Origin: Nitrospira sp.
GTDB lineage: Bacteria; Nitrospirota; Nitrospiria; Nitrospirales; Nitrospiraceae
DNA: 40,623 nt
Direction: 5' to 3'
NCBI GenBank assembly: GCA_005116965.1
Contig: SWDG01000006.1
Location: 391,963-432,585, forward strand
Shown here: positions 22,411 through 25,945 of the stretch, one piece after another
Position numbering within the stretch: the first letter of the stretch is position 1
Layout of the letters: every line of letters begins with the position of its first letter
Notes under the pieces: model-generated
Seen by the model: only the letters and a program-made list of their open reading frames with translations
What the model was told of the DNA's origin: nothing
Database searches by the model: none
Made by a program: the position numbers and the translations under genes

Positions 22411-22482
22411 TCCGCTTCGTTGCCTCCTCTGTTCTCATTCGCATCGTTCTCCTGATTTTCTTGTTGGTTTCCTCTCGTGATC

Positions 22483-22542
22483 CTACAGGAGAAGAATGTT
22501 ACGGCTGGTGCCCCTACGACCCGTTGTCCGAAATGTCAGCCT
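22483..22542 (+). pseudogene. truncated start of a zinc-ribbon gene (duplicate of 26103 gene)
   Basis: CTACAG, then ATG 22496, then codons for [12 protein letters not shown], match the start of the intact gene at 26103-26109 (VGASTTHCPKCQ), including CTACAG upstream. One base is missing after the ATG, so the ATG frame gives MLRLVPLRP instead. Similarity ends after the first CxxC. The rest of the gene is gone, replaced by 230 bp of unrecognised sequence leading into the integrase remnant. Confidence 0.55.
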
Positions 22543-22770
22543 CCACGTTGCAAGGAGGTGCTGAGGCACACCTTGTTCTGTGCATCGGAGCCAGTCGTTC
22601 CATACGATGGCTGTGCGCAGTTCAAGATCCGAGCCTACTATTCTGCGGGGGCTCGCAATGCACAGGACAAGGTCCGCCCCAACGCCTGTGCGTTCTACTT
22701 GACAGGGCTACAGGCTCAGCGCAAAAATCTGCCGCTCCTATTCCGTATCCTCATGGACTTGGGAAGGGAT

Positions 22771-23079
22771 AACTACTTCGTTATGCCGTCAGCTCCGATT
22801 CGGATCAGACCGGGAGAGGATGGACGGCTGATCGTGCAGCTTCACGAGACGAGCCTTCAACGGGCGGTCAAGGGGGCCGTTCGAAAAGCCGGAGTGGTCA
22901 AGCATGTCGGCTGCCATACCTTCCGGCATACCTTCGCCACTCACCTGCTGGAAGCCGGATACGACATCCGCACGATTCAGGAATTGATGGGACACAAAGA
23001 TGTCAGCACGACCATGATTTACACCCACGTGCTGAACAAGAGAGGCCACGGAGTCCGGAGTCCGATTGATGGACCCTGA
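22771..23079 (+). pseudogene. intI: integron integrase (IntI) remnant, C-terminal part
   Basis: About 102 residues at the end of an open frame starting at 22477 match the IntI C-terminus: [18 protein letters not shown], then [40 protein letters not shown] and a tail VRSPID. The catalytic His and Arg (HTFR), the GH and the nucleophilic Tyr (MIYTH) are kept. The N-terminal domain, the first catalytic Arg and the IntI-specific insert are missing, so it cannot be active. Sequence between 22543 and 22770 is open but unlike any integrase. It is oriented with its 3' end towards the cassettes, the reverse of class 1 integrons. Confidence 0.85.
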
Positions 23080-23080
23080 G

Positions 23081-23103
23081 GGCTTATACAGGCTGTATAA
23101 GCC
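23081..23103. repeat. 23-bp perfect palindrome after intI
   Basis: Arms GGCTTATACAG and CTGTATAAGCC around one central G, 1 bp after the integrase stop. A degenerate relative lies at 23216-23236 and a single half (CGCTTATACGG) near 23182. It could be a terminator (no T-run), a regulator site, or part of the attI region. Confidence 0.7.
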
Positions 23104-23215
23104 GGGAGGCGTTTGGGGCTGGAAGGTTCGGACATGATGAAAATACAGGGTTGTAGGCGAATGGCCGGGGAAAGTGGAAACCGCTTATACGGAAAGACGC
23201 AGTCTGTGTCGGGTG

Positions 23216-23236
23216 GATTATACAGACTCTATAATC
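23216..23236. repeat. 21-bp palindrome related to the one at 23081
   Basis: Arms GATTATACAG and CTCTATAATC around a central A, with one mismatch. The core TTATACAG-N-CTNTATAA is shared with 23081-23103. It ends 3 bp before the core site GTTAGAC where the first cassette joins. Confidence 0.6.
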
Positions 23237-23239
23237 AAT

Positions 23240-23246
23240 GTTAGAC
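23240..23246 (+). other. attI-type core site GTTAGAC
   Basis: GTTAGAC fits the integron recombination core GTTRRRY. It lies 160 bp after the integrase stop and 16 bp before the first cassette gene, whose AAGGAG follows directly. In integrons the crossover falls between G and TT, so the first cassette would start here. Confidence 0.65.
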
Positions 23247-23262: not shown

Positions 23263-23925
23263 GTGGCGCTTGAAGACCGTGTTCGAACTCGGATCGAGGA
23301 TCTCATTCGCGACAGCAATCGCCTATCAGCAGGCAACGACCATGGCCAATCCGTAGACGAACGCCGTCGCGGAGAATGCTCCGCATGGCTTACGTCGGCA
23401 CAGAACGTCGTCCACATAGTCTGCCAATCACCGACCTCTCCATACCGCCAGAAGGCGGATGCCGTCGTAACAAAGAAATGGGGATATGTCATCCACGATG
23501 GTGTTGCCGAATTAAGTGCGGTCCTGACGAATCTGCTTCGGGATGCAGATGCAGGTCTTCTCGCGTTGGTTGCCGATCAAGCTCGGGCAGAGACATTCGA
23601 TAACTTTCTCGATCACGCGGAGGCCTATATCGCTGAGTTACGCAAGAACGAAGCCGGAGTCATTGCAGGAGTCGTTTTTGAGGATTCCCTTCGCCGAGTT
23701 TGCAGGAAGCAGTCGATCGCGGAAAAGGGCATTAAGCTCGATCAATTGATTTCTGAGCTCACTGCCAAAGGAAGTCTCTCGGCTGTCAAGGCCAAGCGAG
23801 CACGGGTGGCGGCTCATGTCAGGACCAAGGCTAGCCACGCTCAGTGGGATGAATTCGATATTTCTGACGTTAAGGCAACCATTGCGTTCTCGCGCGAACT
23901 CGTCGCATCCCATCTCGATGCGTAG
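23263..23925 (+). CDS. HEPN-like cassette gene
   Basis: 220 residues; GTG start 7 bp after AAGGAG. The C-terminal region (about 125-215) has a helical pattern with GVIAGVVFEDSLRRVC, GIKLDQLISEL and VRTKASHAQWDEFD, containing R187-x4-H192, the HEPN RNase motif. The N-terminal half is unrecognised. HEPN proteins often act as RNases or as helpers in toxin-antitoxin and defence systems. The stop TAG directly touches the attC, as is usual in cassettes. A cassette origin is well supported; the activity is inferred. Confidence 0.72.
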   Translation: MALEDRVRTRIEDLIRDSNRLSAGNDHGQSVDERRRGECSAWLTSAQNVVHIVCQSPTSPYRQKADAVVTKKWGYVIHDGVAELSAVLTNLLRDADAGLLALVADQARAETFDNFLDHAEAYIAELRKNEAGVIAGVVFEDSLRRVCRKQSIAEKGIKLDQLISELTAKGSLSAVKAKRARVAAHVRTKASHAQWDEFDISDVKATIAFSRELVASHLDA

Positions 23926-23983
23926 GCCTAACCCTTCGTTCCAGCGGACCGCCTCCGGCGGCCGCTGAACTCAAACTTTAGGC
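23926..23983 (+). other. attC recombination site of cassette 1 (58 nt)
   Basis: Starts GCCTAAC (RYYYAAC type) and ends TTTAGGC (GTTRRRY with G replaced by T). Inside, GTTC-C-AGCGG-A-CCGCC, loop TCC, and GGCGG-CCGCT-GAAC make a long hairpin whose left arm carries two extra unpaired bases (C42 and A48 of the decade), the hallmark by which integrases tell attC strands apart. Confidence 0.82.
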
Positions 23984-24000
23984 GGAAAGATGATTATGCT

Positions 24001-24471
24001 ATGACCGAGCCCCAACCACTATCGGTTCTCCGGGCGAAAGGCTGGTCCGGGGTTCCGTCTTCCCCCGGCGTTTACTGGTGGTACTTTCTACGAACCGAAC
24101 TCGACCGCTTACGGGTAGCCGAATTGTGCGACGTGCCCCGGTTGCAGTTGCGATTCGCGACGGACGGAAAAGTGTGCCTCTATCACGGGATGGCCAACAA
24201 TCTCGCAGAACGTGTGGAATGGCACGCTGCTCAGAAGCTAACGCTAAAGTGTTTGGAGTCGGGCTTACTCTCGACGTTCCGGTTCAGTCTCCTTGCTCTG
24301 AATGACTTCGACTACTTGGGCGGGTCGCCTCAGATCGACGACTTTTTCGACAGCCTTTCGATTAGCTGGCTAGCAGCTAGGACCCGGGACGAGGCCGAGG
24401 CGCTAGAGCGTCTCGAACTTCAGGGTACGTATCATTATCCGCTCAACATACCAGGGCAACAGGAGGCCTGA
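24001..24471 (+). CDS. GIY-YIG-like nuclease-fold protein, cassette gene
   Basis: 156 residues. The GIY-like start SPGVYWWYF (Gly23, Val24, Tyr25) and CLYHGMANNLAERVEWH (YIG-like Tyr61-His62-Gly63, then Arg71 and His75) resemble the GIY-YIG fold. It ends with ALERLELQGTYHYPLNI, similar to the Glu and LNI end of that fold. A nuclease is likely, but the catalytic set is incomplete to the eye. It begins 17 bp after attC1. No attC separates it from the next gene, so the two share a cassette. Confidence 0.6.
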   Translation: MTEPQPLSVLRAKGWSGVPSSPGVYWWYFLRTELDRLRVAELCDVPRLQLRFATDGKVCLYHGMANNLAERVEWHAAQKLTLKCLESGLLSTFRFSLLALNDFDYLGGSPQIDDFFDSLSISWLAARTRDEAEALERLELQGTYHYPLNIPGQQEA

Positions 24472-24570
24472 ACTCGTGGCATTTGTCCGGCATCTGAAGT
24501 CCGCGCGGAGCTTCTACAAATGGCGATTCGTGAAGTCGAGCGCTCGGGCCACATAACCTCAGAGGTCGTC

Positions 24571-25014
24571 ATGAGGCCAAATTGCACCACCGTGTATCTC
24601 GTGTCTTGCGTCAGCCAGAAACGGGAACACGCATGCGCTGCCCGTGACTTGTACGTGTCCGATTTGTTCCTCAAGGCGCGCCGGTTCGCCGAAGCGTCAG
24701 GGTGCCTTTGGTTCATCCTGTCCGCCGTGCATGAATTGGTCGCGCCTGATCAGGTGATTGCGCCCTACGAGCGGACGCTCAACACGATGCGGGCAGTCGA
24801 CCGCCGCGCGTGGGGCGAGCGCGTTGCCGCTCAGCTTGCCGAGGCGGTGTCAGACCTGTCGCGGGTGGTGTTCCTAGCTGGCGAGCGGTATCGTGAATTC
24901 CTCGCCCGGCACCTCGCCAGTCGCGGCGTGGAGGTGTCGGTCCCGATGGAGTGGCTGCGAATTGGCGAGCAGTTGAGTTGGCTGGGGCAGCATTCGCCTC
25001 CGCCCGCTGTGTAG
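24571..25014 (+). CDS. DUF6884-like protein, cassette gene
   Basis: 147 residues from ATG 24571 (AGAGG upstream); an earlier ATG at 24520 would add 17 residues. Pattern: VYLVSCVSQKREHACAARDL, YVSDLFLKARRFAEASG, WFILSAVHELVAPDQVIAPY, then VVFLAGERYREFLA. This fits DUF6884, a family of unknown function with similarity to nucleotide-modifying or defence proteins. It is paired with the GIY-YIG-like gene and closed by attC2. The start choice is uncertain. Confidence 0.65.
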   Translation: MRPNCTTVYLVSCVSQKREHACAARDLYVSDLFLKARRFAEASGCLWFILSAVHELVAPDQVIAPYERTLNTMRAVDRRAWGERVAAQLAEAVSDLSRVVFLAGERYREFLARHLASRGVEVSVPMEWLRIGEQLSWLGQHSPPPAV

Positions 25015-25015
25015 G

Positions 25016-25109
25016 TGCTAACCATGCGCTGCAGCGAACCCGGCCATCGCGCTCCGGTTACAATCCAACGCCCTCGTGGGCCGGGTCGCTGAGCTTGGGC
25101 CGTTTCGGC
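25016..25109 (+). other. attC recombination site of cassette 2 (94 nt)
   Basis: Starts TGCTAAC and ends GTTTCGGC, a worn GTTRRRY. The left arm GCT-G-CAGCGA-A-CCCGGCC pairs with the right arm GGCCGGG-TCGCTG-AGC, leaving an extra G and A unpaired, again the attC signature; the loop is about 30 nt. TTGGGCCG before the end is also typical. The last base changes suggest the site is decaying. Confidence 0.75.
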
Positions 25110-25383: not shown

Positions 25384-25728
25384 CTAAAGACGACGATTCC
25401 TAGTACGTCGAACAGAGCTTCGTGTCCTACTGGACCCGCGAGCTAAGAGCCACTTCTTAAACGACGCTTGGCTTTCACCGGACGGTCTGCCCGCAAGAAG
25501 GCCTTCGATACTGATGTCCTCGTCGAGCTTGTCCCAGTGAATCCCGTGCCCTCTGGCGATCAATCGCCAGTTTTTGCGTTCTACGGGTGTGGCATGAATC
25601 AGGCGAGGAAACCAAGCAAGTGGCACGGACAAGCTCCGCCCATCGCTCAGCTCTACGGTGAGAGTGTCTTCTGTCAGTATCACTGTTTCGGCTACCGGCA
25701 ATGAAATATCAACTGCCGAAGTATTCAT
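25384..25728 (-). CDS. DUF2442 protein
   Basis: 114 residues, usual for the family. The core reads VILTEDTLTVELSDGRSLSV, PLAWFPRLIHATPVERKNW, GIHWDKLDEDISIEGLLAG. DUF2442 proteins commonly pair with DUF4160 proteins in toxin-antitoxin-like operons, and here the gene overlaps the DUF4160 end. It lies antisense to the cassettes. With DUF4160 broken it may persist as an orphan antitoxin. The C-terminal tail (SSRTRSSVRRTRNRRL) is arginine-rich and may be non-native. Confidence 0.85.
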   Translation of the reverse strand: MNTSAVDISLPVAETVILTEDTLTVELSDGRSLSVPLAWFPRLIHATPVERKNWRLIARGHGIHWDKLDEDISIEGLLAGRPSGESQASFKKWLLARGSSRTRSSVRRTRNRRL

Positions 25729-25945
25729 TCCATCCCTCCAGAAGGGTATTCTTGTGCTCGGTCACGCGTGTATGAATCCGAACGATTTCTGGACGTGAAA
25801 ATCCTCCGCTTTCTTGCAATCGAATCGGATCAAGCCAAAACTTTGCCACCTTATCTTGTCGTTCAATGTGGATATGCGACGGTTCATCACGATCGCCCGC
25901 CTAAAAGTAGAACCGATAAGGACCAACCCTCAGAACTGTCGGCAT
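25709..25945 (-). pseudogene. DUF4160 protein with premature stop
   Basis: ATG 25945 opens MPTVLRVGPYRFYF, then TAG at codon 15 (25901-25903), then AGDRDEPSHIHIERQDKVA, KFWLDPIRLQESGGFSRPEI and WNEYFGS, stop at 25709. Apart from the TAG (expected Tyr) it is a full-length 78-residue DUF4160 protein. It overlaps the DUF2442 start by 20 bases. It is a probable toxin inactivated by one base change; suppression of the amber codon or a sequencing error are other options. Confidence 0.8.

Follow-up and report, generated by a model that had tools for sequence, protein, structure and literature searches.

A cassette in the remnant integron of a Nitrospira genome carries two adjacent genes, one for a predicted GIY-YIG nuclease of the GIY_YIG_2 family and one for a DUF6884 protein. 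Nuclease and DUF6884 recur together, sometimes fused, across at least seven bacterial phyla. The pair is an unlisted variant of the computationally predicted defence candidate PDC-M57 and not something categorically new. We propose, with moderate confidence, that the cassette encodes a two-protein nuclease module in which the DUF6884 protein would provide recognition and the GIY_YIG_2 protein would cut, most plausibly against phage or plasmid DNA.

The cassette and its integron

The window (the whole stretch of 40,623 nucleotides that was analysed) is positions 391963-432585 of contig 6 in a 3.73-Mb genome that is 99% complete. Relatives searched around this host were Nitrospira-like Nitrospirota. 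The following features of the window are relevant here.

22477-23079, plus strand: integron-integrase remnant, the C-terminal third of IntI (TIGR02249, 2.5e-38, model positions 216-313 of 315)
23240-23246, plus strand: attI-like core site GTTAGAC, start of the cassette array, read from the sequence
23263-23925, plus strand: cassette 1, a 220-aa ORF without family (no Pfam, meaningful NCBIfam or PADLOC match)
23926-23983, plus strand: attC1, with the top attC-like score in the window and a hairpin
24001-24471, plus strand: nuclease gene of the GIY_YIG_2 family, read as 156 aa, with its catalytic core preserved and its C-terminus lost (PF20815, 4.5e-15)
24450-24462, plus strand: site of a +1 frameshift relative to homologues (tblastn frame switch, one extra base)
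24463-24556, plus strand: out-of-frame remnant of the nuclease C-terminus, stop TAA at 24554-24556 (tblastn)
24571-25014, plus strand: DUF6884 gene, 147 aa from ATG 24571, longest ORF from 24520 (PF21818, 1.4e-50; PADLOC)
24718-24738, plus strand: LSAxxG signature, here LSAVHEL with Gly changed to Glu (judged against 97 relatives)
25016-25108 (approximate), plus strand: probable attC2, degenerate, last site of the array, stem CAGCGAACCCGGCC / GGCCGGGTCGCTG with one bulged A

The initial annotation had placed two same-strand genes between attC1 and attC2 with no site between them, and this arrangement holds: both open reading frames are present and match Pfam families, attC1 is clear and attC2 is probable. 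The core-plus-arm score of attC1 is 10, the window maximum, against values of at most 8 in 12 shuffled windows, and none of 200 shuffles gave a hairpin as stable as its own (z = -4.5). attC2 retains a stem of 13 bp in which a single base bulges out. It is rated only probable because its cores are degenerate and its hairpin z is only -1.9. A degraded attC at 24472-24570 had been named as one observation that would refute the two-gene reading. Such a site is rejected: the stretch aligns with nuclease coding sequence, being the C-terminus of that protein, and no hairpin lies between the two genes (z = -0.09). Across four integron regions of the genus, a pattern scan found only one attC-like site scoring 7 or more.

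The integrase remnant lies on the same strand as the cassettes and is the best IntI match in the host genome, at 131 bits against a cut-off of 265. An IntI profile search of the genome found no full-length intI in the assembly, so that the host has a C-terminal remnant in place of a functional integron integrase. Other members of the genus do have full-length IntI (6 of 59 genomes). In the window (22477-23246) the remnant shares its strand with the cassettes, and in one relative (L132, 7235-7306) an attC-like site also lies past the 3' end of intI, the opposite of the textbook layout.

Two further observations concern the neighbours of the pair. The protein of cassette 1 (23263-23925) has a C-terminal segment with an R-x4-H motif (RTKASH) that is reminiscent of HEPN RNases. 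Right after the array (25384-25900, minus strand) there is a DUF2442 gene with a DUF4160-like frame just upstream, an arrangement that resembles a toxin-antitoxin pair. In Nitrospiraceae UBA6905 (L112, 4215-4700), a comparable DUF4160-DUF2442 pair comes after a fragment of DUF6884.

A GIY-YIG nuclease gene with a frameshift

Profile, signature residues and predicted fold all place the first protein in the GIY-YIG superfamily. It scores 56.4 bits against PF20815 (cut-off 22.4). Y25, Y61, G63, R71, H75, E136 and N149 are invariant among nine sequences, and the GIY-YIG signature residues Y25, Y61, R71, E136 and N149 are also invariant among 18. The AlphaFold2 model (pLDDT 81) is closest in the PDB to the UvrC GIY-YIG domain (Z 8.4, rmsd 2.6 over 90 residues). 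It also matches T4 EndoII, Eco29kI and I-TevI, and its nearest PDB folds are GIY-YIG nucleases. PADLOC has no match for the protein, searches of plasmids, phages and viral contigs returned no relatives of it, and NCBIfam offers no meaningful name for either gene of the cassette.

The reading frame is not full length, with a +1 frameshift costing about 34 C-terminal residues. In tblastn with the proteins of Undibacterium (L037) and an Acidobacteriia MAG (L039), the match runs in one frame to 24462 and in the next frame over 24452-24553. The out-of-frame stretch is 64-65% identical to the C-termini of these two proteins (E 1e-10), and the nucleotide alignment places one extra base in the window copy. 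Since the C-terminus matches in the next frame, the nuclease gene carries a one-base frameshift, and its ancestral distance from the DUF6884 gene was 14 nt, as in Undibacterium. By alignment, then, 24472-24553 is the lost nuclease C-terminus and not intergenic by origin. Whether the frameshift is a real mutation or an assembly error cannot be told. The initial annotation had overlooked it, along with the changed signature glycine of the DUF6884 protein and the reduction of the integrase to a remnant.

The DUF6884 protein and its YaaA-like fold

Assignment of the second protein is firm. It scores 171 bits against PF21818 (cut-off 30), and PADLOC identifies it as PDC-M57A (PDLC04712, 1.8e-41), one of the two components of PDC-M57. 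ATG 24571 is the more likely start, as judged from the sequence, rather than 24520: an AGAGG ribosome-binding site (24561-24565) lies ahead of it, and it gives a 14-nt gap equal to that of the Undibacterium relative. Divergence of both genes from their relatives falls mostly at third codon positions. The DUF6884 protein sits on a short tree branch and shares 84% domain identity with a Planctomycetes relative.

Two motifs are of note. The CxxxK motif is present as CVSQK, with Cys in 93 and Lys in 91 of 97 relatives. The LSAxxG motif, which has been named previously (PMC11701544), is altered. The window reads LSAVHE where 91 of 97 relatives have Gly at the last position, and Glu is absent from the commonest residues at this position in the others.

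A model of a natural fusion (pLDDT 94) gives DUF6884 a YaaA-like fold, with matches to DNA-binding YaaA (5caj, Z 9.8) and AF0587 (Z 9.0). YfjM, a DUF6884 protein of Bacillus subtilis, is reported in a Pfam paper to be among the interactors of abasic and ribonucleotide lesions and is modelled there flipping a base (PMC11701544). The window protein also has a weak similarity to DpdC (2.8e-4, PADLOC), which, like the YfjM data, points to nucleobases.

Recurrence of the pair

The initial annotation had read the shared cassette as a sign of joint movement and joint function and had called for a search for adjacent homologues elsewhere. These exist. A genome scan for DUF6884 gave 230 loci, of which the best 80, those most similar to the query, were kept. 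In six of these best 80 of 230 a GIY_YIG_2 gene lies directly upstream on the same strand, with gaps of -10 to +14 nt. The six genomes (Undibacterium jejuense, an Acidobacteriia MAG, an Armatimonadetes genome, a Chloroflexi MAG, Pontibacter roseus and P. harenae) represent five phyla. In every case the nuclease is above the PF20815 cut-off and is the sole PF20815 gene of its genome. Two Rhodococcus plasmids go further and encode DUF7662-DUF6884-GIY_YIG_2 as one protein (WP_258913978.1, WP_255163037.1). Recurrent pairing and fusion across phyla argue for one working unit, and it is very nearly certain that the two genes are linked beyond chance. Joint movement is well supported too, because in Undibacterium the pair travels on a different mobile element (see below).

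A second partner is more frequent. Directly downstream of DUF6884, or fused to it, PDC-M57B is found in 44 of the best 80 of 230 loci. The M57B gene usually overlaps DUF6884 by a few bases where it is not fused, and all 20 downstream partners sampled matched the PADLOC M57B models. This brings the loci with a GIY-YIG-type partner to 50 of the best 80 of 230, which is not a population estimate, as many of the 30 unpartnered loci are near-identical sphingomonad plasmid copies. DUF6884 without a GIY-YIG partner is common on these plasmids.

The association is one-sided. A Bacteroidota sample contained 24 strong GIY_YIG_2 genes, and around 23 of them no DUF6884 lies within about 1.4 kb, which rules out an obligate tie of GIY_YIG_2 to DUF6884; in Bacteroidota the nuclease is usually alone. 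Elsewhere GIY_YIG_2 is rare: apart from the gene already known, nothing in the class to which Undibacterium belongs matched it more strongly than 1e-4 to 1e-5.

Exchange of partners and vehicles

Is M57B itself a GIY-YIG protein? Pfam and PDB searches by sequence gave no GIY-YIG family hit for it. A structure search of the PDB with the model of one fusion (L059) was filled by its DUF6884 half. The assignment rests instead on profile similarity to GIY_YIG_2 (hhalign probability 92%, E 5e-7), on motifs (RGVYFF, VRVGTH, RL-x-QH, an invariant Glu and a conserved Trp-Asn), and on the order of strands and helices in the fusion model, which is in line with it. We regard M57B as GIY-YIG-like, though not proven to be so.

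The partners have been swapped. Mapping the GIY_YIG_2 partnership onto the DUF6884 tree takes five changes, of which well-supported branches force at least two. In Gemmataceae, where the nearest relatives of the window's DUF6884 protein occur, a different upstream gene stands in place of the nuclease. That gene is conserved, encodes 104 aa and has no known function (L036, 2259-2570; L038, 3693-4004). The window protein falls in a group (support 96*) whose other members come from Planctomycetota, Pseudomonadota and Acidobacteriota, which on the tree is a sign of horizontal spread. The vehicles differ too. The Undibacterium pair (L037, 3450-4468), which is intact, comes last among the cargo genes of an element of 4.06 kb. 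A 48-bp repeat of the 3' end of tRNA-Met marks the limits of this element, and an integrase-like gene lies beside the tRNA. Taken with the window and the Rhodococcus proteins, an integron cassette, a tRNA element and a plasmid have each carried the pair.

DUF6884 has other associates. One Nitrospirota genome encodes a HEPN_Swt1-DUF6884 fusion (L012, 862-1902), HNH is also found, and in Variovorax DUF6884 lies beside a type I-E CRISPR system and a DpdB-like gene. On haloarchaeal plasmids DUF6884 overlaps a gene for a tandem GIY-YIG protein, and Hachiman HamA and a helicase follow directly downstream (L020, 4004-6292; L029, 3058-5346). The flanks of 32 paired loci hold KwaB, MADS, Zorya, a methyltransferase and PDC-S01, together with housekeeping and phage genes. 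As a sign of a defence role, such neighbours are only suggestive.

Comparison with known systems

PDC-M57 (PADLOC-DB 2.0) is the nearest known system. Its M57A is DUF6884 and its partner is GIY-YIG-like and adjacent or fused. The window differs in that no M57B gene is adjacent, the partner being a GIY_YIG_2 protein (PF20815) matched by neither M57B model; the nucleases of five GIY_YIG_2 relatives likewise have no PADLOC match. Moreover, the partner is upstream whereas M57B is downstream, and the window copy is on an integron cassette. The Rhodococcus proteins share both Pfam families with the window pair, but they are single fused polypeptides, carry an extra N-terminal DUF7662 and have DUF6884 before the nuclease.

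Taken separately, each protein also has familiar counterparts. The predicted fold and catalytic signature of the nuclease are those of the UvrC N-domain, T4 EndoII, Eco29kI, Hpy188I and I-TevI. However, its identity to these enzymes is about 20% or less, and it lacks both the accessory domains of UvrC and a DNA-recognition domain of its own such as Eco29kI and I-TevI have. The DUF6884 protein resembles YaaA of E. coli (PF03883) and YfjM of B. subtilis in its YaaA-like fold and CxxxK motif. YaaA, which has been linked to peroxide stress, is longer; the window protein differs in its LSAxxG sequence and in being paired with a nuclease. Only a functional analogy can be drawn with GmrSD-type modification-dependent (type IV) restriction, which combines a nuclease and a recognition part as two genes or one fused protein (PMC4619093). 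The families are unrelated, and the window module has no NTPase.

What the module might do

How might two such proteins act together? In the proposed mechanism, DUF6884, with its YaaA-like fold, would be the recognition subunit, binding nucleic acid and inspecting bases. Abnormal or modified bases would be flipped into a pocket built from the CxxxK and LSAxxG motifs. The GIY_YIG_2 protein, a single-domain GIY-YIG nuclease that depends on metal, would do the cutting. The target of the two proteins would be DNA with the recognised base in it, and the DNA of incoming phages or plasmids is the most plausible candidate. Different GIY-YIG types can fill the nuclease role (GIY_YIG_2, M57B or others), either gene can come first, and both parts can be joined in a single polypeptide.

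The components of this proposal are not equally strong. The analysis itself establishes the two families, their motifs, the predicted fold of the nuclease, the repeated linkage and fusion, and horizontal spread on several vehicles; the defence role, the recognition of bases and the split of tasks between the proteins are inferred from these. A role of the intact module in defence or conflict is somewhat favoured, and the small defence module suggested by the initial annotation is plausible in that DUF6884 is PDC-M57A and has PDC-M57B as its usual partner. The base-sensing mechanism is put forward more tentatively. Most PDC candidates, which were derived by guilt-by-embedding, have not been validated (PMC12988326). 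In the library of papers searched, none mentions PDC-M57, which is a computational prediction.

One alternative is that the pair maintains the host genome. DUF6884 would bind lesions such as abasic sites and ribonucleotides in host DNA and the GIY-YIG protein would incise beside them, as UvrC does. The lesion binding of YfjM (PMC11701544) and the closeness of the nuclease fold to the UvrC domain both fit. However, the distribution is patchy, with GIY_YIG_2 in 1 and DUF6884 in 16 of 295 Nitrospirota genomes. A repair role also sits poorly with carriage on a cassette, a tRNA element and plasmids, and with close DUF6884 relatives that group across four phyla. We consider it unlikely.

Perhaps, instead, DUF6884 serves the mobile elements themselves, with or without the nuclease, in plasmid or phage maintenance, anti-restriction or competition between elements. 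DUF6884 does occur in 76 plasmid and 120 phage records, and its neighbours on Sphingobium and Sphingopyxis plasmids include ParB, KleE and antirestriction genes. Yet those plasmid copies mostly lack a GIY-YIG partner and many paired copies are on chromosomal contigs, which makes this quite improbable as the main account. Mobile elements carry defence genes too, so the two readings overlap.

The last alternative, that two unrelated genes were trapped by loss of an attC and are now degenerating, is very unlikely and as an account of the pairing is refuted: the frameshift, the changed signature residue, the integrase remnant and the degenerate attC2 are all compatible with decay, but the same order and the same 14-nt gap outside integrons in other phyla, together with the fusions, mean that the pairing predates the cassette, and the third-codon-position divergence and short DUF6884 branch also speak against it.

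Decay of the window copy itself may hold at the same time as the proposed nuclease module. This copy may be impaired because of the frameshift, the Gly-to-Glu change in LSAxxG and an integrase that survives only as a remnant, and it is doubtful that it still functions.

A broader possibility is that DUF6884 is a general base-inspecting subunit that can be joined to interchangeable effectors in bacteria and archaea, including GIY_YIG_2, M57B, the haloarchaeal tandem GIY-YIG proteins and HEPN. It would then define a class of base-sensing defence systems that has gone unrecognised and that spreads with integrons, tRNA elements and plasmids. At this breadth the idea is speculative and rather unlikely to hold.

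For the family, the analysis gives a predicted defence candidate, PDC-M57, an anatomy: a YaaA-fold protein together with a GIY-YIG-type nuclease. It adds an alternative nuclease partner, GIY_YIG_2, that the PADLOC models do not list, and a unit that moves on three kinds of vehicle (integron cassette, tRNA element and plasmid). It also offers a prediction to test, namely that DUF6884 would recognise bases and the GIY-YIG protein would cut.
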